The position numbers were made by a program, and so were the translations under genes. DNA of 26,850 nucleotides from a virus: positions 1 to 26,850 of IMG/VR virus record IMGVR_UViG_3300050821_006420; one strand, 5' to 3'. Shown in pieces: positions 1,665-23,797 of the stretch (its first letter is position 1; every line of letters starts with the position of its first letter). The notes under the pieces are model-generated. The model worked only from the letters and a program-made list of their open reading frames with translations, made no database searches and had not been told where the DNA came from.

Positions 1665-3973
1665 TGGGCAGCCTGCGGGGCATTAGCAGCGATGTGCGCC
1701 TGGGCGATCTGCGCGGCGGCATCCATGGCGTTGCCTCCGTGATCCACTGCCGTCTGCATCAGGTTGGCATGATGGTCGACCGCCGCCTGGATCTGCGCGG
1801 TGCTGATCGCCTCGTCATGGGAGATCAGGGCTTCCAACTGGGTTTCGTTGAATGAGCCGGTCGCCGCGATCTGGGCGGTCGCGAGTTTGACGGCGGCGTC
1901 GAGGCGCATCTTCATCATGGCCTGGTTGTGCTGCATGATGGTGTTCTGCTGTTCCTGCTGCGCCTGCGCCTGATTCTTCTGGGCCTGCACCTGAACCTTC
2001 TGCTGCTCGATCTGGGCAAGCATGACAGTCGGGTCCTGCTTCTTGGGCATGTTCTGGGCGTGCTGCATGATCTGCTGGGGCGTGACGTCGGCAAAGAACT
2101 TCGTCTCGTCCTTGAAGCCCGCGAGGTGGCACATCTCGGCCAATGTCTCGCGGTATTTGTCCACCGGCACGAGAGGATTGTCCGGGCCTAGGAGCTGGAT
2201 GATGCTTTCCTGGGTCTGCTTGATCTGGGCCAGGAAGGCGAGGCTCTGCATGTCCGAACCGCGACCGAGGGCGACGTTGGGCACGCAGTCGAGATCGGAG
2301 TCCCAGAAGCGGGGGTCCATCTCGACGAACTGGTCGCGCAGGCGGATGATCCTTGGCTTGTCCTGATGCCTTACCACCATGCGGTAGATGCCCTTCATCA
2401 GGCGCTTCATGCCGTTGTCGGCGAACAGCCGCGCCACCATCTCCTTGCGGCCCTGTCCGGCCTGGATGGTGTTGTTCACCGCGTTGGGGGTGGCACTTTG
2501 AAGGGCATCGGGGTCCAAGCCTGCAGCAGCGTCGGAGATTCCCGTACGGCGTTCCTTGACGTTGTCGAGGTACTGGATGACGGGAAGCGCGTATTGGCCC
2601 TGGAACGGGGTTTCGAGGGGCTGCACCATGCCGGGCTGGCGGGCGCGGATGACGTTGCCGATCTCGTTGTTCAGGACGTCGTCGAGGTTGACCTGGCCTT
2701 CAACGACGACAGTGCGTGGGTTGATGCTCTGCTTGAGGCTATCCAGGAGGTCGCGCGTGACGCTGCTCTTGATGAGCTGCAGGTCCATCGTCTGGTCGGC
2801 GACCGACTGGCCGATCAGGAGGTGGGGGGTCGGGTCGGGACAGAAGACGGCAAAGGGGATCTCGTCAGCAACTTCGTCGAAGAGGATGTGCGGCCCGATG
2901 GAGCAGACGTGGCGGAGTTCAGCAATTCCGTCGCCGTCCCGGTCCACTCGTATCCATGACTCGATGTATACGAAACGCTTGAGCGCGGAATTGGGACCGG
3001 TATCACGCGAGAAGATGTTGACAGCAGGATTGCGCGTAATCGCCTCAAGGTTGGTGAGGTAGTAGGAATCGTCGGAGTTGGTGATGCTTTCGATGTCATC
3101 GGGGTCGTATCCCATGTCGACGAGGTCGGAGACGGTCTTCAGACTCCGGTGTCCAATGTAACGACTCGTGTCCAGGTCACGGGTCTCTCGATCGATAAGA
3201 AACTCTTCGGGGGGAATACACTCCAGGACGACGCGCTGTTTCTTCCGTTCACGTCGAATACGAACGTCATAGACGACTTCGGCAGGGACGATGACGTTGC
3301 CTCCCATTTCGACGGCGGCCGTCTTGGTGACCGGGTCGGCTTCGAGGATTTCGACATCTTCTTCCCTCTGCAGGAGCATGAGCTGGTCATGGCTGATGCC
3401 CGAGTAATCCGCCTCGCTGATCTCGATGTCGTCCGACCAGTGCCACTTGATGACGCCGGTTTTAACGGTAAGCGCGTCCTTCAGGCAGTTGTGGAAGATC
3501 TCGAAGCCCGCATTGTCGTTCCAGAAGATGTGATTGACATAGTCGGTCGCCTGGTCGGCCTGCTCGACGCTCTTCTTTGAGTTCGGGATGAACTGCACGA
3601 TGGTCTGGGCTTGAGTAAAAATCCTGAGAAGATCGGGGATCATGGCGAGGACGGAGTCGCGGACCTCGGTCATCACGACTTCGGAGCGGCCTTCCTCCTC
3701 GTTTCCAAAGAGCCTGCCAAGGTAGTAGGCCTGGGCTAGGGCCCGGTCAGGGGCGATGTAGCCGTCGATGAACAGCATGGCGTCGCTGATCGTGCCATGG
3801 ACCTGCACGCCGTATTCGTAGTCGTCCATGCGCTTGCGGCCGGTCGCGGCGCGGTTAGAGACTCCCACACCTTTTGGCAGGCCCTCGGCTCCTGAATTCG
3901 ATTTGCCGGGATCGCCGGGGAGTTCGTAGTTTCCCTGCCCGACCTGGCGCATCTGGAACTTCATGTCCGCCAT
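1661..3973 (-). CDS. Portal protein, P22-like length
   Basis: A 770-aa protein. Portals form the dodecameric head vertex through which DNA is packed. Length is close to the P22 portal (725 aa). The first about 550 residues are a mixed alpha/beta core with typical portal segments (YDVRIRRERKK, PPEEFLIDRETRDL, GQSVADQTMDLQLIKS, GISDAAAGLDPDALQSATPNAV). Residues about 640-770 are a long Q/A-rich helical tail that could form the barrel seen in P22. The gene stands between TerL and scaffold. The start ATG at 3971-3973 lies inside the 3' end of the upstream 53-aa gene. Confidence 0.88.
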   Translation of the reverse strand: MADMKFQMRQVGQGNYELPGDPGKSNSGAEGLPKGVGVSNRAATGRKRMDDYEYGVQVHGTISDAMLFIDGYIAPDRALAQAYYLGRLFGNEEEGRSEVVMTEVRDSVLAMIPDLLRIFTQAQTIVQFIPNSKKSVEQADQATDYVNHIFWNDNAGFEIFHNCLKDALTVKTGVIKWHWSDDIEISEADYSGISHDQLMLLQREEDVEILEADPVTKTAAVEMGGNVIVPAEVVYDVRIRRERKKQRVVLECIPPEEFLIDRETRDLDTSRYIGHRSLKTVSDLVDMGYDPDDIESITNSDDSYYLTNLEAITRNPAVNIFSRDTGPNSALKRFVYIESWIRVDRDGDGIAELRHVCSIGPHILFDEVADEIPFAVFCPDPTPHLLIGQSVADQTMDLQLIKSSVTRDLLDSLKQSINPRTVVVEGQVNLDDVLNNEIGNVIRARQPGMVQPLETPFQGQYALPVIQYLDNVKERRTGISDAAAGLDPDALQSATPNAVNNTIQAGQGRKEMVARLFADNGMKRLMKGIYRMVVRHQDKPRIIRLRDQFVEMDPRFWDSDLDCVPNVALGRGSDMQSLAFLAQIKQTQESIIQLLGPDNPLVPVDKYRETLAEMCHLAGFKDETKFFADVTPQQIMQHAQNMPKKQDPTVMLAQIEQQKVQVQAQKNQAQAQQEQQNTIMQHNQAMMKMRLDAAVKLATAQIAATGSFNETQLEALISHDEAISTAQIQAAVDHHANLMQTAVDHGGNAMDAAAQIAQAHIAANAPQAAQ

Positions 3974-5247: not shown

Positions 5248-5453
5248 TTCTTGGGGTCGTAGAGGCCGGGGTTGTTCTGGCTCTTGGCGTAGCTGCCGCT
5301 CTTCTTCGGCCGCGACGGGGTGTGGCCCGAGTTGTCGATGATCGCCCGCTTGGGCGTGTGCTTGCCGCCGCCCTCGCTCTTGGGGGCTTTGTAGCCTCCG
5401 GTCTGGAAGCCGGCGGTGTTCATCTTCTCGGTGGTGATATTGTTGGCGCTCAA
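5244..5453 (-). CDS. Small basic protein after the HNH gene, 69 aa
   Basis: A 69-aa protein rich in G, S, K and N (SANNITTEKMNTAGFQ, GGGKHTPKRAIIDNSGH, KSQNNPGLYDPKK), probably disordered. It starts with TTG at 5451-5453, and GGAG about 7 nt upstream supports this start. That ribosome site lies inside the last codons of the upstream HNH gene. No family recognised. Confidence 0.6.
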   Translation of the reverse strand: MSANNITTEKMNTAGFQTGGYKAPKSEGGGKHTPKRAIIDNSGHTPSRPKKSGSYAKSQNNPGLYDPKK

Positions 5454-5920
5454 GATAGTTCTCCTTTGACGTGAGCCCAGCTTTTGCCCCGAATGGCAGC
5501 GCTGGTACTCGGCTGACTAATACCGAATTGTTTGCCAATCTTTTCATGGCTAAGGTCCGTCTCAATCGCCATTTTTCGGATGGCAATTACAGCTTCCGCG
5601 TTGAGCTTAGTGCGAGCGCGGCCTCTCACCATCTTATCCCGAGTGTTATCGCCGTTCGTCCCGAGATAAAGATGCCGAGGATTTACGCAGGCGGGGACAT
5701 CGCATTTGTGAAGAACAAGCATGTCTTCTGGGATTGCTCCAAAATGAAGTTCCCAGCTCAAACGATGGGTCTGAACTATTCGTCGGCTTCCATCGATTCG
5801 ACTGCCTATGGTCATGCGACCATAGCCATATTCGCCGTCATCCGAACCACACCACAAAAGACAACCGCTGTTTGGCTCGGGGATGGTCTTTGCCATAAGC
5901 CGCTCAAGGGGAGGCTTCAT
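5450..5920 (-). CDS. HNH homing endonuclease 1
   Basis: A 156-aa protein of the HNH_3 type (zinc-finger-like HNH nucleases, often mobile). Start ATG 5918-5920 overlaps the TerL stop by four bases; the open frame upstream of it lies inside TerL and is not used. Order of parts: a PNSGCLLW strand near residue 17, a HRLSW helix near 52, then HKCDVPACVNPRHL at about 71-84 with the catalytic His and Asn and the paired Cys, then a C-terminal DNA-binding helix-turn-helix (EKIGKQFGISQPSTSAAI). It splits TerL from the small genes, and its last five codons supply the ribosome site of the next gene. Confidence 0.88.
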   Translation of the reverse strand: MKPPLERLMAKTIPEPNSGCLLWCGSDDGEYGYGRMTIGSRIDGSRRIVQTHRLSWELHFGAIPEDMLVLHKCDVPACVNPRHLYLGTNGDNTRDKMVRGRARTKLNAEAVIAIRKMAIETDLSHEKIGKQFGISQPSTSAAIRGKSWAHVKGELS

Positions 5921-7389
5921 ACTACGCCTCTCAAACCACGCTTTAGACTTTGTCCGGGAATCCAGGCGGGGGCACGTCCGCCGACCAAGGCTCCCTGGCC
6001 GGCGAACGTAAGACAAAGTGCGTCGGCAAGGTCGGGACTCTTCCTGATCCTTGCCTTCATCTCTTCCTTGTCCTCGATCTTGTACTTGCCCGTCGAATGG
6101 TACTTGTAGCGCGTGCTGACCAGTTCCATGCGCAGCTCGTCGTCCTTGGGCAGTCGGCAGACCCGGGTGGTCAGCCAGTCCTTGACCATGATCCAAAGCT
6201 CGTCGCGGAGACGGTAGGCTTTGAGGTTCATGGCGGTGGATTCGGAGACGTTGACATCGCGGACGTTGAACTTGAGTTCACGGAGACGGTCGGCGACGCC
6301 TGAACCCAGGCCGATGGAGTCGACATTGATCTCGGAGGGCCGGTCCATGTTGGCTTCCATGGCGACCCAGCCGGTGACGCCCATCAGGTCGAGGCCGCGC
6401 TGGCTCTTGACCTCCAGGACGACGTTGCCCTGGCGCTTGCAGATTGTCGATCGGTCATCGCCGTAGCGGGCGACGTCGACGCCGTAGATCAGGGGTTCGG
6501 TGGTGAGGAGGGCGATGTCCCGGTTCATGGCGCCGTCGACGAGGTCGGCCGAGATGAGGGTGTCGGATTCGGACACCGGGAACTCTCCGAGAACCTTGAC
6601 ACGGTATTCAGTCGAGCCCTCGCCCCAGCGGTGGAGGGTGTCGGCTATGAAGTCGGCGCTCACCAGCCGGTTGCCCACGCAAGACTCGTGCATGGTGAGC
6701 CAGTTGGAGCGCAGCGAGTTATGGGTGTCGAAGAAGAAGCCGGAGTTGCGGGTCGGGTTGCCGATGAGGATCGTTACGCAATTGTGCCCCGACATACTCC
6801 CAGCAGCCGCAGAATACACGGCTTCAGGGATGCCCGAGGCCTCGTCAAAGATAAGTAGAACGAACCCGTCCGAATGCACTCCTTGCATTGCCTCGGGGCG
6901 ATCCATTGAAGAAGTCTTTGCACTGACGAAGCTCTCCTCAATCTTGTTGCGAAGCTCGGCCTTCAAAACGATGCGGTCGGTGAAGACCTCGAACAAGACC
7001 CGGCAGAAGTCAGGGAGACGGCTGAACCACTTCTTGATCTCCGGATAAAGAGCATCGAAGAGCTGTCCAGCCGCTGGGGCCGTCACCACGGTCTTCTGGG
7101 GATATCTGACCGTCTGATGCCACACCACAAGCATCCCGCACACCGCGGTCTTGCCTACTCCATGTCCCGTCCGAACGCTGATCCTCTTGCGTCCCGCCGC
7201 CACCGACCTCAAGAACTCGCGCTGCCACGACAGCAGATCGACCCTCAGAACCTCCTCGGCAAAGGCCACCGGGTCGTGCCGGTAGCGATGCACGAAGGCA
7301 TCGAACTTCTGCCGCATCTCGACAGCCTGCTGCGACTGCGAACGAGGCTTTGTTTCACGTGAAACAGTCGGGGCAATCGCATCACCCAT
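5917..7389 (-). CDS. Terminase large subunit (packaging ATPase and nuclease)
   Basis: A 490-aa motor protein that packs DNA and cuts the concatemer. Walker A is GHGVGKT at 75-81 and Walker B is VLLIFDEA at 177-184. The RNase H-like nuclease has acidic residues in IYGVDVARYGDD (D305), INVDSIGLG (D357) and SPDLADAL (D453/D456). I place the start at ATG 7387-7389, which overlaps the upstream stop by 8 nt (ATGGGTGA); a GTG at 7431 would add 14 residues and cannot be excluded, as neither has a strong ribosome site. Confidence 0.92.
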   Translation of the reverse strand: MGDAIAPTVSRETKPRSQSQQAVEMRQKFDAFVHRYRHDPVAFAEEVLRVDLLSWQREFLRSVAAGRKRISVRTGHGVGKTAVCGMLVVWHQTVRYPQKTVVTAPAAGQLFDALYPEIKKWFSRLPDFCRVLFEVFTDRIVLKAELRNKIEESFVSAKTSSMDRPEAMQGVHSDGFVLLIFDEASGIPEAVYSAAAGSMSGHNCVTILIGNPTRNSGFFFDTHNSLRSNWLTMHESCVGNRLVSADFIADTLHRWGEGSTEYRVKVLGEFPVSESDTLISADLVDGAMNRDIALLTTEPLIYGVDVARYGDDRSTICKRQGNVVLEVKSQRGLDLMGVTGWVAMEANMDRPSEINVDSIGLGSGVADRLRELKFNVRDVNVSESTAMNLKAYRLRDELWIMVKDWLTTRVCRLPKDDELRMELVSTRYKYHSTGKYKIEDKEEMKARIRKSPDLADALCLTFAGQGALVGGRAPAWIPGQSLKRGLRGVV

Positions 7390-9313: not shown

Positions 9314-9503
9314 GATATTCGTAGAGGCGCCTCAACGTAGGCGTCTCCTCCTGGATGCGCTGCCATGACGTGCTGGTATTGGCGAGCGTTGCCTGCACGG
9401 GATTGGATATACGCCTGTTCTTGTCCAATGGCGTCAATACGAAAGCATGTCGACGTTTGGTGCTTACGGGCGCACGTTTGAACGGTTCCTTGATATGGCT
9501 CAA
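9228..9503 (-). CDS. Last gene of accessory operon, 91 aa
   Basis: A basic 91-aa protein (SHIKEPFKRAPVSTKRRHAF, then TLANTSTSWQRIQEETPTLRRLYEYL). I choose TTG 9501-9503: it overlaps the stop of the glycosyltransferase-like gene by two bases and has GGAGACAGG just upstream. The C-terminal 28 residues (Ala/Glu/Pro-rich) are encoded opposite the end of the exported-protein gene, so at least the tail may be poorly constrained. Function unknown. Confidence 0.5.
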   Translation of the reverse strand: MSHIKEPFKRAPVSTKRRHAFVLTPLDKNRRISNPVQATLANTSTSWQRIQEETPTLRRLYEYLNGARAESAAEVETPEAEYIPAPALQGC

Positions 9504-10399
9504 AACCTGTCTCCGTCCGCCGTTGAAGGCCTGAATGCAGCCGGACCTATCCGTGCGTTGATGTATTCGATGGCCGCACGTTCCGCCTCCAGATAACGCT
9601 CGTCCAATGGCGCAGGCTTCTCGATCTGACGAACGATCTCCTCGCTGGCCGGCAGCCCGTCGGCATCGCGCTTGCACCAGAGATTGCAAAGCTCCTCAAG
9701 GTTGGATGGCATCGGCAATCCAAGTTCGTTCCTGATAAGCCCCGCCCTCCACACACGCTCGCGTCTCGTTATCCCGTAATGAGCCCACCACAGCGACATG
9801 CGTCGCAAACGTGGGTTCCACTTCCCGCCCTTGCTGGCAAACTCGATGGGAAGCATCGGCAGGCCGCTTCCCGTAATGAAGCTGTACGTCTCAGCAATCG
9901 CAGTGTCGCTGAACCAGAACGGATAACGTGCGTCCAGAACCTCGCCGACTAGTTCGACCCACCGCTTGCCCATCACGAACAGCGTAGGTTGCCCCGGATT
10001 GGCCTGGTCCTTCAATCCCCCGATCTTCAGGTCCGGATGCACCCAGTCATGGTTGCGCCATGCCCAGCTGATGCAATGGTCCCACCTCGGCGTCGCTATG
10101 ATCCCGTCGTCCGGCAGCGTTATCAGCGCATCGGCGTCGGTCAGCTTCGCCAGCCTGTTCCAGCATGAGCCCACGCCTATTGGACGCGGCTTTTCGTCAA
10201 TTGATGCGTTTAGCGCGGGAACGGACATATCCCGTCGAAAGTAGTCGTTTAACACGACGGCAGTCGTCGGCACATCGTCATCGCAGGCCACTAGGAACTC
10301 AAGCTCATGGTCCCCCGTCGCCAGCATCCGCATCGACTCGATGATGCCCACCACTTGCTGTGGTTTGCCCCGCGTGACGATCAGCGCGGCGATCTTCAT
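9500..10399 (-). CDS. Glycosyltransferase-like protein, GT-A type
   Basis: A 299-aa protein. The N-terminus MKIAALIVTRGKPQQVVGII looks like the first strand and helix of a GT-A nucleotide-sugar fold; VACDDDVPTT near residues 38-47 and LITLPDDGI near 93-101 offer the acidic DxD-like residues that hold the metal and sugar nucleotide. The rest (PFWFSDTAIAETY, RRMSLWWAHYGI) is less typical. ATG overlaps the SDR stop by four bases. It probably transfers a sugar made or modified by the preceding enzymes; the acceptor is unknown. No membrane segment, so cytoplasmic. Confidence 0.6.
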   Translation of the reverse strand: MKIAALIVTRGKPQQVVGIIESMRMLATGDHELEFLVACDDDVPTTAVVLNDYFRRDMSVPALNASIDEKPRPIGVGSCWNRLAKLTDADALITLPDDGIIATPRWDHCISWAWRNHDWVHPDLKIGGLKDQANPGQPTLFVMGKRWVELVGEVLDARYPFWFSDTAIAETYSFITGSGLPMLPIEFASKGGKWNPRLRRMSLWWAHYGITRRERVWRAGLIRNELGLPMPSNLEELCNLWCKRDADGLPASEEIVRQIEKPAPLDERYLEAERAAIEYINARIGPAAFRPSTADGDRF

Positions 10400-11100
10400 A
10401 TTGCTCGGCTCTGTCCGCCATCCACGACGATGTTAGCTCCATTGATATGCCTGGCAGCGTCGCTGCACAGGAACGCTACAATGGCAGCCACGTCTTCAGG
10501 CGTGCCCATGCGCACATCGGGCGAGCTCGGCGGCTTGCCCACGTCGATCTCGCCAGGCGCCACGCTGTTGAACGTGATTCCGTCCCTCGCCAGATAACTC
10601 TGCGTCGCCAGACTCTTCATCAGTGCCGTCTGCGCCGCCTTCGTCATCACGAACCAAGGACGTCCGTTGCCGTCCTTGCCTCCATGGATGGACGTGATGG
10701 TCACCACGCGTCCCCATTTGTATTCACGCATTCGCGGAAGCGCCAAGCAGGTGAACTCCATCGTGGCGACTGCATTCTTCTCATAAACCTGAGCCCAAAC
10801 TTGCGTCGGAGTGTCGACAACATCTTCTTCTCCCCAGCGCCCTCCACCACCCACGTTATTGATAAGAATATCGGGAGCGCATGTATTGACGATTGCCTCA
10901 GCTCTGCCATTTCCCGTCTGTAGCGCGTCGTAACGGAACCATTTCACGCCCGGTTCTTCGTGGTGATTGCGGGAACAAATGGATACTGCATGACCATCAG
11001 CAGCCAACTTCCTGGCGATTGCCAATCCAATACCCCTGGTGCCTCCAGTAATGAGCGCCCTGCGCGGATTGACAAAACGCTCTCTGGTGATTTCAACCAC
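10396..11100 (-). CDS. Short-chain dehydrogenase/reductase with Tyr-to-Phe active site
   Basis: A 234-aa Rossmann-fold SDR. It has the NAD(P) glycine motif TGGTRGIG (18-25), the NNVG motif (81-84, usually NNAG), Ser137 in ITSIHGG and the C-terminal INGANIVVDGG. At the catalytic YxxxK position it has FVMTK: Phe150 replaces Tyr, 13 residues after Ser137, and Lys154 is kept. The codon is TTC, one base from TAC. I use the GTG at 11098-11100, which overlaps the transketolase stop by 8 nt; an ATG at 11113-11115 is the alternative. It may bind its substrate without normal hydride-transfer chemistry or use another acid. Confidence 0.85.
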   Translation of the reverse strand: MVEITRERFVNPRRALITGGTRGIGLAIARKLAADGHAVSICSRNHHEEPGVKWFRYDALQTGNGRAEAIVNTCAPDILINNVGGGGRWGEEDVVDTPTQVWAQVYEKNAVATMEFTCLALPRMREYKWGRVVTITSIHGGKDGNGRPWFVMTKAAQTALMKSLATQSYLARDGITFNSVAPGEIDVGKPPSSPDVRMGTPEDVAAIVAFLCSDAARHINGANIVVDGGQSRAI

Positions 11101-11947
11101 CGAACGGTATCCCATAGCCGTCATCGACCCACGCAAGCTCGCCCATCGGCTCACGCTTCACCGGCCCAAGAAACTCGTCTTCGAGCGTCGTCTGGCCGGC
11201 ATCCAACATCTGCTCGGCTACAATCGACCATAGCCCGCCATTCGGATGATGCTCGTCCCAGATAACGGTGTTTTCAGTAACAAATCCGGACAGATCCGGC
11301 GCCGGCTTGAGGCGAAAAACGTCGACCACGCATTTCACCACATGACAGCGCGCACGCTGCGTCTCGATCCCTGTAGAAATCGTAATAGCCTTCTTCTCGA
11401 CGCCAAAGGTGCAGTAGCCGTAACTGAAATCCTGATTGGCCCGGTAAAGGTCGTGCGCCGGGTCCTTATCGAGCCGAATGTAATGCGGCGTGCCTGCCGT
11501 ATAAGCTATTCGCACGCAAGCCTCGGCACACACGCAGTCCGCCGGATTGTAGATCGTGAGGTTAGCCAGCGTTCGCATCACGCCCACATCTTCCGTCGCA
11601 TGGTGCGTCGGCCCATCCAGCCCCATCGACAGGCCAGAGCCGATGCCGAGGATCGTCACCGGCAGGTTGGGAATGCAGATCCCCACCTTGATCTGCTCCC
11701 AGCCCCTCATCAGGTGGGCGATGATGCCGTAGACGAACACCTTCTTGCCCGCGCTCGCGAGGCCCGCCGCAAGGCTCATCATGTTCTGCTCGGCCACGCC
11801 CACGTTGATCGCGCGTTCGGGAAACTCCCGCCTGATCTCGTCCAGTTTCCAGGCTGCTGCGTCGTTGCACAGGATCACGATGGAGGGATCAGCCTTCATC
11901 AGGCCATGCAGGACTCCAAACACAGCATCTCTAAAGTCGCGCTTCAT
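11093..11947 (-). CDS. Transketolase C-terminal subunit (pyrimidine-binding and C domains)
   Basis: A 284-aa protein equal to the second half of transketolase, which moves two-carbon units between sugars using thiamine diphosphate. It has the catalytic glutamate motif GVAEQN (Glu53), then SMGLDGPTHHATEDVGVMR (109-124) and the NPAD motif, followed by the C-terminal domain. The start ATG 11945-11947 overlaps the oxygenase stop by four bases. Its partner half is encoded about 1.5 kb upstream, separated by three genes. Split transketolases are known in surface-sugar and branched-sugar pathways, but the halves are usually adjacent. Confidence 0.88.
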   Translation of the reverse strand: MKRDFRDAVFGVLHGLMKADPSIVILCNDAAAWKLDEIRREFPERAINVGVAEQNMMSLAAGLASAGKKVFVYGIIAHLMRGWEQIKVGICIPNLPVTILGIGSGLSMGLDGPTHHATEDVGVMRTLANLTIYNPADCVCAEACVRIAYTAGTPHYIRLDKDPAHDLYRANQDFSYGYCTFGVEKKAITISTGIETQRARCHVVKCVVDVFRLKPAPDLSGFVTENTVIWDEHHPNGGLWSIVAEQMLDAGQTTLEDEFLGPVKREPMGELAWVDDGYGIPFGG

Positions 11948-12498
11948 ATGCTGGGAAGCCCTTCGTTGTAGAACTCCTGTGGGATCTTCTCTGCCCAGCG
12001 CGCCCACAGCAATAACCTTGGGACCGATGGAATGAGCCCACAGTGGTATTGGGTGTTGTCGGCCAGCCAGGCCGTGCCCTTCGGACCATATAGAGGCTCC
12101 AGCAGGCCATCGGGACGCATATGAAGCTGGGCCGAGTCAATCGGAGTGTCGTAGCCTAATATGAAGAGGGCCACGATCTTGGAGCCGCCACGGTCCTTGT
12201 GCAGACCATGTAGACCGGGAAAATAGGGTGTATGTTTTGTCGTATAAAATGCGTTAAGCGACCACAGGATTGCTTGCTCTCCAAAGAACTTAGAGACTAT
12301 CGGCGTGAGATTCTTCGCATAGTCGAGGAAATGCGGAGCAGCGATGACGCTCTCCATCGAATTGCATTCCATTCCCATTCGGGGCCGCGCCTTGATGTGC
12401 CCCGGATGGCGCTTGCAGGTATCGAGGAAAGCCACGACGTCATCGATCCAGGGCACGATGCCGAGGCGCGCAAAGCCCTGTTGGTTGAGGTCGCTCAC
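11944..12498 (-). CDS. Fe(II)/2-oxoglutarate oxygenase-like protein (PhyH-like)
   Basis: A 184-aa protein. The start is GTG 12496-12498, overlapping the DNA methyltransferase stop (GTGA), with GGAG 8 nt upstream. The likely metal triad is His100-x-Asp102 (LHKDRGG) and His152 (QYHCG), with Arg161 as the 2-oxoglutarate-binding residue; these positions and spacings fit phytanoyl-CoA-type and related non-heme oxygenases. It would hydroxylate a small molecule, a sugar or possibly a base. The family is inferred from this motif set and not from close similarity. Confidence 0.6.
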   Translation of the reverse strand: MSDLNQQGFARLGIVPWIDDVVAFLDTCKRHPGHIKARPRMGMECNSMESVIAAPHFLDYAKNLTPIVSKFFGEQAILWSLNAFYTTKHTPYFPGLHGLHKDRGGSKIVALFILGYDTPIDSAQLHMRPDGLLEPLYGPKGTAWLADNTQYHCGLIPSVPRLLLWARWAEKIPQEFYNEGLPSI

Positions 12499-13172
12499 AA
12501 CAGCATCTCCTGCGTGGCCTTCGGCTTGGGCTCGGCAAATAGCCGGGGCTGACGATAGGCTTCCTCTATCCGGCGGCACGCGATGTCGAAATATTTGGGC
12601 TCTATCTCTATCCCGATGAACTTGCGAGAGAGGTTGACGCAGGCGACACCCGTGGTGCCGCTGCCGCAAAAAGGATCGAGGATGGTGTCAGCGTCAGGCA
12701 GAAAGCCGAGGCACCATTGCATTAAATCGGCGGATTTTTGCGTTGGATGCTCGAACGATTCGCCCGCCCGACTCGCTCCTTCCCATTCTTTAGTAAACTT
12801 CTGAATGCGGCCTAGAAAGTTAGTCCATGCAAGTTCACAATGGGAGTATATGAAGCCCTTGCGCGGCCCTGATGGCGACTTGTCCCACACGAGCCAGCCA
12901 TTCGTTCCGGGCAGTTTGTCAGAGAAATTGTTTGCTCCCCACAGGATGACGGCGGGGTACTTGAGCAGGGGCGCAGGATCAAAAGGGACGTCGTCGCCGC
13001 GCACCGTTTCGTCGCCCCACATCTTCGAGCCGTTTGATCCGCGCAGCGGCTTATACCCAATCCCATAAGGCGGATCTGTCACCACCGCATCGACCTTGCC
13101 GAGCGTCGGCAGTATCTCAAGGCAATCCCCGAGATACAGCGTGCAGTCGCCTATGGTTTCGACGCGGTTCAT
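12495..13172 (-). CDS. DNA methyltransferase (N6-adenine or N4-cytosine), beta-class order
   Basis: A 225-aa SAM-dependent DNA methyltransferase. The catalytic motif IV DPPYG is at 33-37, followed by the conserved HPTQK (142-146) and the SAM-binding motif DPFCGSGTT (166-174), then a helix GIEIEPKYFDIACRRIEEA. Catalytic motif before SAM motif is the order of CcrM-like enzymes. There is no nuclease partner, so it is probably a solitary enzyme used against host restriction or for regulation. It is placed inside a sugar-enzyme operon and coupled to the oxygenase. Confidence 0.9.
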   Translation of the reverse strand: MNRVETIGDCTLYLGDCLEILPTLGKVDAVVTDPPYGIGYKPLRGSNGSKMWGDETVRGDDVPFDPAPLLKYPAVILWGANNFSDKLPGTNGWLVWDKSPSGPRKGFIYSHCELAWTNFLGRIQKFTKEWEGASRAGESFEHPTQKSADLMQWCLGFLPDADTILDPFCGSGTTGVACVNLSRKFIGIEIEPKYFDIACRRIEEAYRQPRLFAEPKPKATQEMLL

Positions 13173-13188
13173 GCAAGCGCCTGCTCGA

Positions 13189-13443
13189 TCATGGCTTCAA
13201 TATCTTGTCGTGAACGCTTCTTATCAGAGCAAGGACGCTCTCTGTCATTGCCTCTGCATAGACTTCGTCCAGATCGCCTCTTTCTCTGAGTTCGTTCAGC
13301 CATGCCATCTTGGCCTCAGCGGCCTCCACCATGGCAATCGCCTGCTTGAGATCAGGCCGCACATTCACTGGCTCAGGCACCTTTTCAATTTTGTCAGGGA
13401 TGCTTGCGGCTTCGCGTTTCATCCAGTCCGGTGCGTCACTCAT
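13189..13443 (-). CDS. Small helical protein, 84 aa
   Basis: An 84-aa protein from ATG 13441-13443, which overlaps the transketolase N-half stop by four bases. It starts MSDAPDWMKREAASIPDKI and is mostly helical (LKQAIAMVEAAEAKMAWLNELRERGD). No family recognised. Confidence 0.6.
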   Translation of the reverse strand: MSDAPDWMKREAASIPDKIEKVPEPVNVRPDLKQAIAMVEAAEAKMAWLNELRERGDLDEVYAEAMTESVLALIRSVHDKILKP

Positions 13444-14159
13444 GCCAGCGCCTGTCGCGCTATCGCAATCTGGTCGCCTTCTGGATGCCTGTGGTGCCAT
13501 TTGGGATTGCCCTCCATGAAGGGAATGCCCTTGCCCTTGATTGTACCGGCAACAATGCAGAGCGGCGTAAATTCGCGCGACTTATAGCGCAGTTCGGCCA
13601 TAAGCAGCATTTCGATATCGTGGCCGGGGCAAAGCGCGACGCTCCATCCAAAGCCATTGAATGCAGAAACAGAATTTATGCCGAGAACTTCCTCGGTGAA
13701 GTTGGCGCACGATTGCTTGTTGTCATCGATGATGGCGATGAGATTGGTAAGCTCATGGTGGCGCGCGAACATCGCCGCTTCCCAGATCGCGCCTTCATGC
13801 AGCTCGGCATCGCTCAGGACACAGAACGTCCGTGCGTTGCTGCTGTCGAGTTTATGAGCCAACGCGATGCCCGCCGCGATGCCCAGCCCCTGTCCCAGCG
13901 AGCCGCTGCAGATCGCAGGCCAGCCAGGCCACATCAGTTGGTCGGCCTTCATGCCAAGGTCTTCGAGGATGGCGTCAAGCGTCAGATGGCCGTGCGTCTT
14001 GCTCAAGATGAAACGATCTCCCGGTTTCATCGTGCCGTAGAACAGTGCAACGGCGATCTCCACCCATGAAAGCGCGCTCGCTATGTGGCCCTTGCCGATC
14101 CTGAGAGCGTTCTCAAGGATGGCGCGGCGGATCTCCGCTGCCTTGGCTTCGAGGTTCAT
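13440..14159 (-). CDS. Transketolase N-terminal subunit (thiamine diphosphate domain)
   Basis: A 239-aa protein equal to the first half of transketolase. It shows GKGHIASALS (His25), DRFILSKTHGH (about 48-58), GSLGQGLGIAAG (86-97), the diphosphate/metal motif as SDAELHEGAIWEA (116-128, where many enzymes have GDGE) and IIDDNKQS (143-150). ATG 14157-14159 is confirmed by a four-base overlap with the 24-aa upstream gene. It should pair with the C-half at 11093-11947 to form one enzyme. Confidence 0.88.
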   Translation of the reverse strand: MNLEAKAAEIRRAILENALRIGKGHIASALSWVEIAVALFYGTMKPGDRFILSKTHGHLTLDAILEDLGMKADQLMWPGWPAICSGSLGQGLGIAAGIALAHKLDSSNARTFCVLSDAELHEGAIWEAAMFARHHELTNLIAIIDDNKQSCANFTEEVLGINSVSAFNGFGWSVALCPGHDIEMLLMAELRYKSREFTPLCIVAGTIKGKGIPFMEGNPKWHHRHPEGDQIAIARQALA

Positions 14160-14230
14160 TGGTGCCTGCACCATATGATGCCAAATATGCAAAGCTCCGC
14201 AGCCGTAACGCAAAGGCAGATAGTTAGCAT
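14156..14230 (-). CDS. Tiny hydrophobic peptide, 24 aa
   Basis: A 25-codon frame exactly fills the gap between the SAM methyltransferase and the transketolase N-half. Its ATG overlaps the upstream stop by one base (TAATG) and its TGA overlaps the downstream ATG (ATGA). The product is Cys- and Ile-rich and could span a membrane (MLTICLCVTAAELCIFGIIW, then CRHQ). It may be a real membrane peptide or only a coupling frame that passes ribosomes to the next gene. Confidence 0.4.
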   Translation of the reverse strand: MLTICLCVTAAELCIFGIIWCRHQ

Positions 14231-15177
14231 TAGGGCGCACCCTCCAGCGCATCGATGCGGGCCTGCTTGGCATCGGCGTATACATCATGCGGTGGCTTCC
14301 ATATCATCTGCGAGTAACCTTCCAGCAAAAGGCTGCCGAAGCCCGTCCTGTGTTGTGTGCGATCTATGGCGAAATTGTTTGGACGCCAAAAACCACGCTT
14401 CTCATGGATCTTGATTGCTGTGTAATCCACCAGATTTGACGGGTCATACAATCCAATGACTGGCTCAATGTGGAAACACGCCGCAGGCTTGGCGCGCAGT
14501 AGGAAATCCTTGAAGGGCCGCCAGCGCGTGCCGGTCTGCTCTAATGCGCCGATGGTCAGGACTGCCGTGTTGAGGGGGAATCCATACGCAAGCGGAGGAT
14601 CAAAGAAATCAAATGCGCAGCCGCCGAGAATGTTGGGAAATACATCCGCCAATTCATTTGCGATCTCAATCGATGCCGTGGCCCAATCAAAGCCGCAGAT
14701 GTATTTGTCTGGAAACTCATGCGCCAGAAAAGCGAGGTTATGACCTGAGCCACACCCGAACTCGTAGATGAAATCGAACTCGCTGAGATAGCGCCGCGCG
14801 AACCAGCCTCGGAAGACCTTATACCAATTCCGTTCAAACATCGGATCGGCCGGCCGGATGAACTGGCTGTCCAGGCGAAGGTATTCGGAGGGACGGAGGT
14901 ATTTCGGCTCCAGTGCCGCGATGTCTCCGGTGCGGCGGAACTCGTCCAGGTTCTCCCGCCAGCCCTTCTGCCAACGCTCAATGTTTTCGCCGGCAATCGA
15001 GAAGTCCCTGCGCTCGATCCTCAAGAGCAGGTCGAGGATGACAGCGTCGCGTTCGTCACCTTCAACGATGTTGTAACTCCAGTCATATTTCGCGATCTCC
15101 AGGAACGTCTTGGCATCGAGAAGACCGCCGAACATCTTCTCGAACGCGCCCGGCGACAGGAAATGGCCATAGGTCAC
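14230..15177 (-). CDS. SAM-dependent methyltransferase, class I
   Basis: A 315-aa protein. A helical N-terminal part (about 1-135) is followed by the SAM-binding motif FIYEFGCGSGHNLAFLA and then CGFDWATASIEIA. The acidic residue after strand 2 (FDWA) should bind SAM ribose. The substrate is unknown; similar domain layouts occur in sugar and NDP-sugar methyltransferases. Start is GTG 15175-15177, overlapping the RHH stop (GTGA). It is the first enzyme of the RHH-led operon. Confidence 0.8.
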   Translation of the reverse strand: MTYGHFLSPGAFEKMFGGLLDAKTFLEIAKYDWSYNIVEGDERDAVILDLLLRIERRDFSIAGENIERWQKGWRENLDEFRRTGDIAALEPKYLRPSEYLRLDSQFIRPADPMFERNWYKVFRGWFARRYLSEFDFIYEFGCGSGHNLAFLAHEFPDKYICGFDWATASIEIANELADVFPNILGGCAFDFFDPPLAYGFPLNTAVLTIGALEQTGTRWRPFKDFLLRAKPAACFHIEPVIGLYDPSNLVDYTAIKIHEKRGFWRPNNFAIDRTQHRTGFGSLLLEGYSQMIWKPPHDVYADAKQARIDALEGAP

Positions 15178-16498: not shown

Positions 16499-16824
16499 GA
16501 GAGCCGCCAGTCGATCTCGGGATAGAGCGCCTTGCAGAGCTTCCATTTCAGCTTGAACTCCGCCGTCTGGAAGCCCTTGGCATCCTCCGCGACCATTCGC
16601 TGATTCTTTCCGCGACCCTGCCAATAGCGCCAGTCAGCGCGATATTTACAAATCAGCTTGTCATTCACTTCAAGATGCCATTCAGGCTGGCGCATCAGTC
16701 CCTCGATTTCTCCCCGCCTCTGCATGTCCAGCAGCACAAGGTGGCGCTCCAGCTCTTTCTTGGAGTCGAACTTCTCGCCTCTAAATTCACACCGTGTATT
16801 CCCATATTTTAAACGTGCGCCCAC
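16495..16824 (-). CDS. DUF1064 protein, PD-(D/E)XK nuclease-like
   Basis: A 109-aa protein. KYGNTRCEFRGEKFDSKKELERH at the start is the typical DUF1064 opening. YRADWRYW followed by VAEDAKGF gives the D...DxK pattern of PD-(D/E)XK nucleases and Holliday-junction resolvase-like folds. Phages carry it near replication and recombination genes, as here. The GTG start has GGAGG about 5 nt upstream and lies inside the HNH2 tail (16-nt overlap). Nuclease activity is an inference. Confidence 0.82.
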   Translation of the reverse strand: MGARLKYGNTRCEFRGEKFDSKKELERHLVLLDMQRRGEIEGLMRQPEWHLEVNDKLICKYRADWRYWQGRGKNQRMVAEDAKGFQTAEFKLKWKLCKALYPEIDWRLS

Positions 16825-17288
16825 ACCTGCCTCCGCTTGATATAGCCAATTAGAGAGCGATGAACGCCGTAACGATCGGCGATTTCGTTCTGTGTGCCTG
16901 ACGTCGCACGAATGGCGCGCACCTGCTTAGCCGTTAACTTGGCCGTATTGATCCTCTCGCCTCTCGCCTGTTTGAATGTCTTGTTTCTTGCATCCATATC
17001 CGCTCTGTTCTGGAGGGCGGTTCCTTCATATAAATGGGCGGGATTTACGCAGCCCCGATTGTCGCAATGATGGCAGGAAAATTTCCCCTCACGGATTTTA
17101 CGCCCTAACTTTACTTCTAACATCCAACGGCTGGCAGCCATTCTACGATCACGAATTTTGAGCCATCCATAGCCTGCGCGTTTGCTGCCATTCCATTCCC
17201 AGCATTTGGTCCAATCCTTTGGCAGATCGGTATAGAAAAGCAGTCGCTCCTTGGCGGACCAATCTGGATTGCATCTACGTTGCGTCAT
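16809..17288 (-). CDS. HNH homing endonuclease 2
   Basis: A 159-aa HNH protein starting at ATG 17286-17288, which overlaps the RHH2 stop by four bases. It contains CWEWNGSKRAGYGWLKI, then the HNH core SCHHCDNRGCVNPAHLYEGT, then a C-terminal helix-turn-helix (QNEIADRYGVHRSLIGYI) and the ending RRQVWAHV, as in its relatives in this window. It stands between RHH2 and DUF1064 and its final codons hold the DUF1064 ribosome site. Confidence 0.87.
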   Translation of the reverse strand: MTQRRCNPDWSAKERLLFYTDLPKDWTKCWEWNGSKRAGYGWLKIRDRRMAASRWMLEVKLGRKIREGKFSCHHCDNRGCVNPAHLYEGTALQNRADMDARNKTFKQARGERINTAKLTAKQVRAIRATSGTQNEIADRYGVHRSLIGYIKRRQVWAHV

Positions 17289-17482
17289 GGCTTCAGTGTC
17301 TCCTTCACGCATTGCCGGACGACCTCGGCAAACGAGGTCTGACGGATCGCCGCCTCGCGCCGCAAGCGGATCAGCATCCACGGCGGCCAGGTGATCGACA
17401 CCCGGGGGCTCGCGTGCGGCGGCTGCTTGCCGTTGGCATGGGAGCCGACGGCGGGAACTTTTCTGCTGTCACCCATTCTCAT
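17285..17482 (-). CDS. RHH transcriptional regulator 2, 65 aa
   Basis: A 65-aa protein with a flexible basic N-terminus and a ribbon-helix-helix from about residue 26: strand RVSITWPP, helix 1 WMLIRLRREAAI, then TSFAEVVRQCVKETL. It is distinct from RHH1 but has the same operator type at its promoter. The ATG at 17480-17482 is 6 nt after the -10, so the mRNA may be leaderless; a second ATG at 17474-17476 is possible. It lies at the divergence of the leftward replication and rightward early operons, a good place for a switch regulator. Confidence 0.72.
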   Translation of the reverse strand: MRMGDSRKVPAVGSHANGKQPPHASPRVSITWPPWMLIRLRREAAIRQTSFAEVVRQCVKETLKP

Positions 17483-18053: not shown

Positions 18054-18313
18054 TGGGCCGCGTCAAGGACTACTGGCACGACGAGATTTGCGCGCAGGAC
18101 GATGAAGAGGCTTATCACACCTCAAGCAGCCCTGCCGAGGAATACGATCGCGTCGAGCGGATGCGCACCGAGATGGAGAAGGCCATGGGGCCGGATTACA
18201 GCAAGCAAGGCATCTTCATCCATCACAGATGCGCCTATTGCGACGACGGCAGACTGCCCTGCAGGCAGGGCGCTCCCAACCGCTGCGACAACCCGAGGGC
18301 ACGCAATGACTAA
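18053..18313 (+). CDS. Small Cys-rich early protein, 86 aa
   Basis: Starts at ATG 18053-18055 (TGATG overlap). The N-terminal 60 residues are acidic and helical. The C-terminus has HHRCAYCDDGRLPCRQ and then NRCDN, a CxxC plus two further Cys that could hold zinc. It precedes the annealing-protein gene and overlaps it by 8 nt. No family recognised. Confidence 0.6.
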   Translation: MGRVKDYWHDEICAQDDEEAYHTSSSPAEEYDRVERMRTEMEKAMGPDYSKQGIFIHHRCAYCDDGRLPCRQGAPNRCDNPRARND

Positions 18314-18980
18314 CATGAGAATCTGGGATGCGCTGTCCAAGACAGATCCCAAACATACCAAGCAGTTCAAGCGTGCGGGTGGCTTCTCCGGCACGGCCAT
18401 GAAGCCGATCTGGATGGTCAAGCGGCTCACCGAACAGTTCGGTCCTGCCGGCATCGGCTGGGGCATGCACAAGCCCGAGTTCCAGACTGTGCCCGCTGGC
18501 GAGGAAATCCTTTGCTTCTGCACCGTTGGTCTATGGTACCGCGAAGACGACAAGAGTCCCCCTCTGGTCGTCTATGGCGTGGGTGGGGACAAAGTACTGG
18601 GCAAGAACAAGTACGGTCCCTTCACCAACGATGAGGCCTTCAAGGCGAGCTATACCGACGCCCTGTCTAACGCCATGAAGCAGATCGGCGTCGGCGCCGA
18701 CATCCACATGGGCCTGTTCGATGACGAGAAATACGTCCGCGACACCGCCCGCGAGTTCGAGAAGGCTCCCGTAGACGAGGACGTCTCCGCCGGGGCGCGG
18801 CGCTGGGTAGCCACCGAGTCCGGCGTCCTGGCAACCCTCGAAAATGCAGAGGATGTGAAGGGCTGGAACGCCCGCAACGCCAAGGCCCTCAAGAAGCTGC
18901 AGGCAAACTTCGAGGATCAGTACGATATCATCATGAAAGTATACGGCACGACATTGGAACGTTCGGAGGCAGGAAGATGA
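18306..18980 (+). CDS. Probable single-strand annealing protein (Rad52/Sak3-like)
   Basis: A 224-aa protein. The opening IWDALSKTDPKHTKQFKRAGGFSGTAMKPIWMVKRLTEQFGPAGIGWG, then a central strand block and NDEAFKASYTDALSNAMKQIGVGADIHMGLFDD resemble phage annealing proteins of the Rad52-like superfamily, where a substrate-type KASYTDAL helix recurs. Such proteins pair complementary single strands in phage recombination. NinB follows, which agrees. The subgroup is my inference. GAGGGC lies about 6 nt before the ATG. Its last 12 residues recur at the end of the next gene, in different codons. Confidence 0.65.
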   Translation: MTNMRIWDALSKTDPKHTKQFKRAGGFSGTAMKPIWMVKRLTEQFGPAGIGWGMHKPEFQTVPAGEEILCFCTVGLWYREDDKSPPLVVYGVGGDKVLGKNKYGPFTNDEAFKASYTDALSNAMKQIGVGADIHMGLFDDEKYVRDTAREFEKAPVDEDVSAGARRWVATESGVLATLENAEDVKGWNARNAKALKKLQANFEDQYDIIMKVYGTTLERSEAGR

Positions 18981-19474
18981 AGGTTCCTCGTCATTGGACG
19001 CTATCGCAACGTCTCGCTCATTATAGCGTGCACGGATCGGCTGGATGCATTCTTTGGACTGCGGCCAAACTCCAATGTGGCTACGGAGTATTATTTTGGG
19101 AGGGGCGTTCTCAATATGCCCATCGGCTTGTCTGGACGGTTGCTAACGGCCCGATTCCGAAGGGATTTCATATCCTGCATAAATGCGATGTGCCGCTTTG
19201 CATCAATCCGAGGCATCTCTTCTTGGGGAGACATGCAGATAACATGGCCGACATGGTCGCCAAAGGGCGCCACGTCGCACGGCAAGGCGAAGCCTGCGGG
19301 CGCTCAAAACTTACGGAGACGCAGGTCCGGGCGATCTATCAAGCTCCCGGTTCCCTCAGAGAAGTGGCCCACCAGTTTGGTATCAGCAGGGCGCAGGTCC
19401 GTAGAATCAAGAATCGCCTTGCATGGAAACATCTCTATGGAACCACGCTAGAAAGGGCACAGGCGGGGCTGTGA
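18977..19474 (+). CDS. HNH homing endonuclease 3, with a fused foreign tail
   Basis: A 165-aa HNH_3 protein. It has GCILWTAAKLQCGYGVLFW, HRLVWTVANGPIPKGF, the HNH core HKCDVPLCINPRHLFLG (69-84) and a C-terminal helix-turn-helix ending RLAWKHL (147-153). Its relative HNH4 stops exactly at WKHL, but this one continues with 12 residues, YGTTLERAQAGL, that match the end of the annealing protein. Its ATG overlaps the annealing-protein stop (ATGA) and its stop overlaps the NinB start (GTGA). Confidence 0.88.
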   Translation: MKVPRHWTLSQRLAHYSVHGSAGCILWTAAKLQCGYGVLFWEGRSQYAHRLVWTVANGPIPKGFHILHKCDVPLCINPRHLFLGRHADNMADMVAKGRHVARQGEACGRSKLTETQVRAIYQAPGSLREVAHQFGISRAQVRRIKNRLAWKHLYGTTLERAQAGL

Positions 19475-19884
19475 GCGTTTTAGCTACCTTCCGGCTATCC
19501 GGATACGAAGATTACAAAAGGGCCGTGGTGGGCGTTAATTCGGCTCCTATGGGCATGGTGGTCACAATTGCAGAGCCAGTGCGAAATAAGGACCAGAACG
19601 CGAGGCTGCATGCTCTGCTGGCTGATCTTGTGACGGCCAGACCGGTGTGGGCGGGGGAGCGGATGGGAATCGAGGACTGGAAGGCTCTGATGGTGCATGG
19701 GGTGGACGTGCATGAGGGGCGGACGGCGGGGCGGGCGGTGCCCGGTGTGGAGGGGGGTGTTGTCCTGCTCCGCCGTCAGACGCGCACGATGAGCAAGAAG
19801 GACCTGTCCGAGCTGATCGAGTACATCGAGGCGACCATGGTCAAATGGGGCATACCGGTGAAGGACACGAGGCACGCAGCATGA
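19471..19884 (+). CDS. ninB: NinB-like recombination protein
   Basis: A 137-aa protein of the NinB family, which in lambda binds single-stranded DNA and can replace RecFOR in recombination. The family segments are visible: RNKDQNARLHALLADL, then RMGIEDWKALMVHGV, and the C-terminal TRTMSKKDLSELIEYIEATMVKWGI. Start is GTG 19471-19473, overlapping the HNH3 stop; the longer frame upstream lies inside HNH3. Together with the annealing protein and DUF1064 it forms the phage recombination set. Confidence 0.88.
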   Translation: MSVLATFRLSGYEDYKRAVVGVNSAPMGMVVTIAEPVRNKDQNARLHALLADLVTARPVWAGERMGIEDWKALMVHGVDVHEGRTAGRAVPGVEGGVVLLRRQTRTMSKKDLSELIEYIEATMVKWGIPVKDTRHAA

Positions 19885-23232: not shown

Positions 23233-23336
23233 CCGAGGAACCTGTAGAGCGAGCCAAGGCAGATGCCCGCCATGGCAGCACTGAGAGCCAGTACCGGCTC
23301 AATCGATGCGCGCAGCAAACTGAGTGCCTTTGTCAT
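23229..23336 (-). CDS. Small membrane peptide, 35 aa
   Basis: ATG overlaps the HNH4 stop (ATGA). MTKALSLLRASIEPVLALSA and the following AMAGICLGSLYRFLG make one hydrophobic helix with a basic end. Likely the gene that stood directly after the lysozyme before HNH4 entered. Function unknown. Confidence 0.45.
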   Translation of the reverse strand: MTKALSLLRASIEPVLALSAAMAGICLGSLYRFLG

Positions 23337-23797
23337 AGGTGCTTCCATATTCGACGCCGCCGAATAAGAGAAATGCTGGCAACAGATACACCATATTCCC
23401 AAGCGATTCTCCCCATGTCGCGGGGATCTTCTCGGATAGCGATCACCTGTTCATTGGTCAGCTTGCTGCGCCCATGATCCGAACCTTTGGGAGATCTGTG
23501 TCTTCCCTTCCTCATCTTGTCGGCCGTGTTGTCTTGGGTGCTGCCCAGAAACAGATGATCAACATTGATGCAAGATGGCACATCGCATTTATGGCAGACG
23601 CATATGCCTTCTGGAATCGGTCCCTTATGGACGGTCCATGCCAGTCGGTGGGCCATTCTTCCCTGTCGATGCCAAGCCAACATGCCGTGACCTGAAGGGG
23701 TAACCTTTGCCATCCAAAGGATGCAGCCAGAATTAGGCTCTGGGATCGAATAGAAATCCAGCCGCTCGGCCAGACTCATCTTTCGATCAACCATCAT
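23333..23797 (-). CDS. HNH homing endonuclease 4
   Basis: A 154-aa HNH_3 protein: PEPNSGCILWMAKVTPSGHG, AHRLAWTVHKGPIPEG, the HNH core HKCDVPSCINVDHLFLGSTQDN, and a C-terminal helix-turn-helix (MGRIAWEYGVSVASISLI) ending RRRIWKHL. It is close to HNH3 and HNH1 in layout. Inserted between the lysozyme and small lysis genes with four-base overlaps on both sides. Confidence 0.88.
   Translation of the reverse strand: MMVDRKMSLAERLDFYSIPEPNSGCILWMAKVTPSGHGMLAWHRQGRMAHRLAWTVHKGPIPEGICVCHKCDVPSCINVDHLFLGSTQDNTADKMRKGRHRSPKGSDHGRSKLTNEQVIAIREDPRDMGRIAWEYGVSVASISLIRRRRIWKHL

Follow-up and report, generated by a model that had tools for sequence, protein, structure and literature searches.

The locus described here raises the question of how a free-standing HNH nuclease gene came to lie directly behind the gene of an annealing protein while carrying, at its own C-terminus, a second version of that protein's last residues. 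It lies in a window of 26,850 nucleotides, which is the whole stretch of DNA that was analysed (positions 1 to 26,850 of the IMG/VR virus record IMGVR_UViG_3300050821_006420). The upstream gene (18306–18980, plus strand) was assigned through its homologues as a RAD52-like single-strand annealing protein of PHROG 7838. That family is labelled "exonuclease", but some of its members from phages carry the annotation Rad52/22 or RAD52-like annealing protein; the family appears to hold RAD52-like annealing proteins and its label may be wrong. In profile searches of the PDB the annealing protein had no structural match, and the HNH family had just a weak one, on its HTH side.

The annealing gene ends with YGTTLERSEAGR and a stop codon (18942–18980, plus strand), and this stop overlaps the start of the nuclease gene, HNH3, as ATGA. 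The whole HNH3 open reading frame spans 18977–19474, its nuclease body occupying 18977–19435 on the plus strand. HNH3 belongs to the HNH_3 family, as it matched PF13392 with 55.7 bits (E 3.8e-15) against a gathering cut-off of 24.8, and H68, N77 and H80, invariant in an alignment of 11 relatives, supply the H-N-H residues. The only Pfam models matched were HNH_3 and an HTH, the latter toward the C-terminal side. After the residues WKHL the protein continues in frame into YGTTLERAQAGL and a stop codon (19436–19474, plus strand), and this second stop overlaps, as GTGA, the start of the next operon gene, which encodes the recombination protein NinB (19471–19884, plus strand; PF05772, E 5.8e-25). 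Because the annealing reading frame is closed by a stop codon where HNH3 begins, and HNH3 has its own start codon, no splicing is needed, and the element was rejected as an intein or group I intron, in which splicing would restore an interrupted gene. Elsewhere in the window, on the minus strand, a block at 9500–14288 holds genes of metabolic or surface-related appearance, judged from their sequence alone (a glycosyltransferase-like gene, a short-chain dehydrogenase and a DNA methyltransferase), among them two transketolase-like halves (11093–12007 and 13440–14288).

Re-reading of the sequence confirmed the coordinates, peptides and codons that the original prediction had given for the two tails. 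The tail attached to the annealing gene reads TAC GGC ACG ACA TTG GAA CGT TCG GAG GCA GGA AGA TGA and the displaced tail at the end of HNH3 reads TAT GGA ACC ACG CTA GAA AGG GCA CAG GCG GGG CTG TGA. Nine of the 12 residues are identical and eight of these nine are written in different codons, with GAA alone the same; the two tails share 20/36 nucleotides. It had also been claimed that a related nuclease in the window, HNH4 (23336–23797, minus strand), stops where HNH3 runs on, and the comparison bore this out: HNH4 is 48% identical to HNH3 and terminates at WKHL.

A match of 12 residues is short, and could in principle have arisen by chance, or could belong to the nuclease as a functional part with a fortuitous likeness to the host tail. 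We consider this extremely improbable. The local score of the window tails was 51, above every permutation control (maximum 46 in 5,518 swapped-partner comparisons from 139 HNH loci). Among 1,209 control gene triplets just four scored at least 43: the window itself, a second HNH locus (L255) and two matches that were low in complexity and out of frame. HNH4 and the other relatives end at WKHL or its equivalent, and the pattern Y...L(E/D)R belongs to the annealing-protein C-termini of two relatives, L001 and L008. In addition, the displaced-type tail was not present in the aligned HNH relatives, and a search of IMG/VR for the pattern YGTTLERx[EQ]AG, which leaves out the record searched from, found nothing beyond this record. 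The tail motif, which might have proved common in unrelated HNH proteins, thus does not appear to be a normal part of any of them.

The original prediction held that the attached tail had been recoded to evade cleavage, and this part of it was not supported. With one identical codon observed against about 3.25 expected under independence and phage codon usage (P of 0 or 1 = 0.10), selection for codon avoidance found no support. The divergence of the tails is saturation, not demonstrated codon avoidance. Since two ends with independently chosen codons would differ to this degree, a diverged donor allele is enough to account for it, without any special recoding; "recoded" here means no other thing than a diverged donor allele.

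The origin of the two tails was addressed through sibling elements that have HNH-free partners. The HNH-bearing contig L155 and the HNH-free contig L298 are 99.3% identical across the 2,101 nt that begin with the displaced tail, which in L155 is identical to the native tail of L298 at 120/120 nt. Upstream, their identity is 90–100% per 30 nt until approximately 200 nt before the insertion and is then about 67–83%, giving 99.2% for the gene body and 76.5% for the 3' segment. The switch in L155 to a diverged 3' end, with the HNH gene behind it, thus lies approximately 200 nt ahead of the insertion. A second pair, L315 and L367, has a body identity of 98.9% and a 3' segment DNA identity of 56.8%, with the native sequence resuming at L315:2678. 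The 3' segments of L356, L323 and L315 cluster with one another (87–95%) and each of their gene bodies is closest to a different HNH-free gene. In the third pair the displaced tail of L090 matches the HNH-free tail of L217 at 41/45 nt (the first 30 at 30/30) and the attached tail matches it at 30/45 nt; no breakpoint can be placed in this pair because the gene body differs too.

Judged by these alignments, the displaced copy is the native one in L155 and L090, and the attached end is foreign in all three pairs. From the three pairs we conclude that in these siblings the attached tail came with the nuclease and the old one was displaced, as the original prediction had proposed for an incoming HNH gene with a complete, diverged 3' end. 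L155/L298 and L315/L367 are, in addition, presence/absence polymorphisms with precise insertion into a near-identical gene. All the supporting pairs are metagenomic contigs, and for L155 an assembly error is unlikely because several contigs (L294–L297) share its arrangement. The HNH gene of L315 has a large internal deletion relative to that of L323 and the foreign gene end is still attached; L314 and L315 (about 2407–2700) both have the appearance of a decayed element, in which an HNH gene with a large internal deletion stands beside a retained foreign 3' end.

The pairs also bear on the idea that the gene end was duplicated locally, at or before the HNH insertion, and that both copies then mutated in place. 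Such a duplication would yield the same layout, and no near relative contradicts it for the window. However, selection would no longer have maintained the old peptide in a displaced copy in HNH3, and still seven consecutive residues were kept while the synonymous sites became saturated. In L155 the displaced copy is unchanged and the attached end is the diverged one over approximately 200 nt, a switch that needs a foreign source. A local duplication is therefore very unlikely, and we return to replacement of the gene end from a foreign donor as the preferred reading.

For the window itself we infer the direction of this replacement, because IMG/VR, GTDB genomes and named phages yielded no near HNH-free allele of the annealing gene. 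A near-DNA search of named phages using the window gave no match, and NinB-based and GTDB searches likewise recovered no near HNH-free relative. A homologous C-terminus was present in two relatives only, L001 (68%) and L008 (74%), both of which are without an HNH gene at this place. Their codons at Y, L and R are TAT, CTN and AGG, like those of the displaced tail, and differ from the TAC, TTG and CGT of the attached tail. HNH-free relatives with codons of the attached type at the NinB junction, which would have told against the original prediction, were not found. In L008 the annealing gene also meets the next gene by GTGA, the same overlap as that between the displaced tail and NinB.

The opposite direction, in which the attached tail is ancestral and HNH3 came in with its C-terminus already extended by the tail of a foreign annealing gene, draws on the fact that neither window copy has a close HNH-free match and on the glycine codon, at which the attached copy agrees with L008 (GGC) better than the displaced copy does. 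Set against this are the Y, L and R codons of both relatives, the GTGA junction, and the sibling pairs, in which the displaced copy is native (L155 and L090) and the attached one foreign. This direction is, in our judgment, unlikely. The codon and junction comparison, at few positions and with two distant relatives, favours the displaced tail (19436–19474) as the ancestral end of the annealing gene, and by analogy with L155/L298, L315/L367 and L090/L217 the attached tail (18942–18980) would be the copy brought by the element, the true left edge of the incoming DNA possibly lying further upstream than 18942. The predicted displacement of the old tail thus holds for the three sibling pairs, and its application to the window follows from homology of architecture, together with weak codon and junction evidence.

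Together, these data make it very probable that HNH3 is a homing element, with a diverged annealing-gene 3' end and the HNH gene together forming its mobile unit. Under this model the nuclease would cleave the annealing gene of an HNH-free phage near the stop codon, and an HNH-bearing relative would serve as template for the repair of the break. The gene of the recipient would gain the donor's version of the 3' end, followed by the HNH gene, and the host gene would stay whole. Copying of the donor's 3' coding end would take place on the left; on the right the junction would be clean, and the recipient's own tail would be left there behind the nuclease gene as the last 12 residues and stop of HNH3, with the NinB overlap kept. 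The displaced tail would supply homology on the right side, as has been proposed for the WHO elements of yeasts (PMC7282813). Because the new end differs in DNA from the old one, we infer that it should resist the nuclease and that it should not recombine with the old tail, blocking deletion of the element. The sibling elements display a foreign 3' end with an HNH gene, a clean right junction and a native, displaced tail; the window itself has this architecture and a diverged duplicate. The clean right junctions suggest cleavage at or near the insertion site.

To see how often such duplicates occur, we screened every HNH locus fetched for a second copy, behind the nuclease, of the upstream gene's C-terminus. 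The sample of this survey was not random, and it sees just those duplicates that still resemble each other; a comparison of the twin tails by themselves passes over L323 and L356, for example. Duplicates of a 3' end with a score of at least 40 were found at 5 of 139 HNH loci, compared with 0.08 expected from partner swapping. With later loci added the count was 5 of 148 versus 0.20 expected, and one very high value in this null set probably came from overlapping loci. The clear 3' cases were L090 (a helicase), L155, L193 and the window. L046, another annealing gene, has a weaker 3' duplicate, yet one that is in frame and in the right place. One of the five loci at or above the threshold, L007, was a low-complexity match and was not counted; the weak or low-complexity matches of L140, L138 and L105 were also not counted as examples, and L010 and L032, first taken as further cases, did not hold up. 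A major head protein tail, NFEAIKLQKLAA, is duplicated after an HNH gene of a different subtype at L255:884–1900, with fewer synonymous differences between the twin tails than in the other cases. This locus surfaced in the control set because the search profile missed its HNH gene, and the best relatives of its major head protein in GTDB, at 63%, are too distant for an empty-site comparison.

A mirror form of the element was found at L131, where a duplicate of the beginning of the downstream gene precedes the HNH gene (a 22-residue match, score 82). There the old start now forms the N-terminus of the nuclease, in fusion with it, and the downstream gene itself begins with a diverged sequence (L131:2447–2947 and 2944–3288). 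L168:2413–3046 is a second mirror-image element, weaker than L131, also with a diverged start of the downstream gene. In the seven cases compared (the window, L090, L155, L193, L046, L131 and L168), 49 of 68 identical residues are written in different codons. No named-phage relatives were found for the genes of L155, L131, L193 and L168, and no GTDB relatives for that of L131.

Most HNH loci tested lack a detectable tail duplicate, and none was found at the named T7-like HNH loci (SD6, CR44b and others). In Kayfunavirus the HNH gene lies cleanly between genes 15 and 16, and nearby variation in gene 16 does not track it. Based on these loci, tail-replacing insertion is not the sole mode for these nucleases. 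The window has further HNH_3-like genes at 5453–5923 and 16812–17381, besides HNH4; one of the three adjoins the terminase gene and one overlaps a lysozyme-like gene, and no tail duplicate was detected at any of them. Different HNH genes lie directly after RAD52-like annealing genes in L070, L032, L034 and L046, and this site is a possible insertion hot spot.

On balance, we favour the view that these loci belong to a widespread, unrecognised class of free-standing phage HNH elements that carry a diverged terminus of the target gene, 3' or, in the mirror form, 5'. Homing would swap the end of the gene for a presumably resistant one and displace the old end, often fused to the nuclease; gene ends would become mosaic, and the foreign end could outlive the nuclease, as in L315. 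Such a class would explain how useful genes can take up a nuclease gene at their ends with neither intron nor intein, and would account for the abrupt mosaic gene ends beside HNH genes in phage genomes. The pairs L155/L298 and L315/L367 make the mechanism directly testable.

The closest free-standing enzymes in phages are the Seg and Mob endonucleases of T4, which are without intron or intein, carry out intronless homing and marker exclusion with co-conversion of flanking sequence, and in some cases are of the HNH_3 type (PMC2988022, PMC10448857). They are reported to cleave at a distance of hundreds to thousands of bp from the insertion site (PMC2988022), unlike the cleavage suggested here, and the portions of these accounts covered here do not describe a tail duplicate (PMC2988022, PMC10448857). 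T4 I-TevI, an enzyme that remains attached on one side of the break it makes, is a known case of one-sided co-conversion (PMC2988022). A literature search of partial coverage returned no phage report of an architecture such as that of HNH3.

The same 3'-end-replacing layout is that of the WHO elements of Torulaspora and Lachancea yeasts, which home into FBA1 and swap its 3' end for the donor's; the old 3' end persists as a gene fragment on the right-hand side of the nuclease, and the unit consists of the nuclease and the upstream 3' region (PMC7282813). The WHO nuclease was shown to be allele-specific, and the 3' ends evolve discordantly from the gene body (PMC7282813). The window has this order of target gene 3' end, nuclease and second 3' end, with foreign and native ends assigned there as argued above. 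WHO elements reside in yeast nuclear genes and have an intein-like nuclease with a zinc finger and fragments of ~400 bp (PMC7282813), whereas the phage elements reside in operons, use an HNH_3 nuclease, have fragments of 12 to about 40 codons and several different target genes, and sometimes fuse the nuclease in frame to the old tail. HNH3 was rejected as a member of the WHO family proper (HO/VDE-related), as the intein-like nuclease domain is absent and Pfam finds HNH_3 and HTH only.

A similar arrangement is found in the mORF hybrids of fungal mitochondria (Glomus atp6, atp9, cox2 and nad3; Allomyces atp6), in which an endonuclease ORF lies near the 3' end of a gene, a foreign C-terminus is attached and the native one lies downstream (PMC3630166). 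The twin C-termini differ strongly in DNA (63.5% for atp6) and little in protein (91%); the differences from the phage elements are the mitochondrial setting, the LAGLIDADG or GIY-YIG nucleases and the longer C-termini (PMC3630166). The HomeR gene drive is likewise aimed at a gene's 3' coding end, for which it supplies a re-coded, rescuing and cut-resistant version, but it is an engineered Cas9 drive in Drosophila and serves as an analogy only (PMC7968924). The logic of the phage elements is the same as that already known from WHO elements and mORFs, and the phage version, apparently recurrent, is new in its nuclease family, its short displaced ends, its several targets, its in-frame nuclease fusion and its 5' mirror form. 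By extending a yeast nuclear and fungal mitochondrial mechanism to bacteriophages and to another nuclease superfamily, it suggests convergence on a natural "home and rescue" design.
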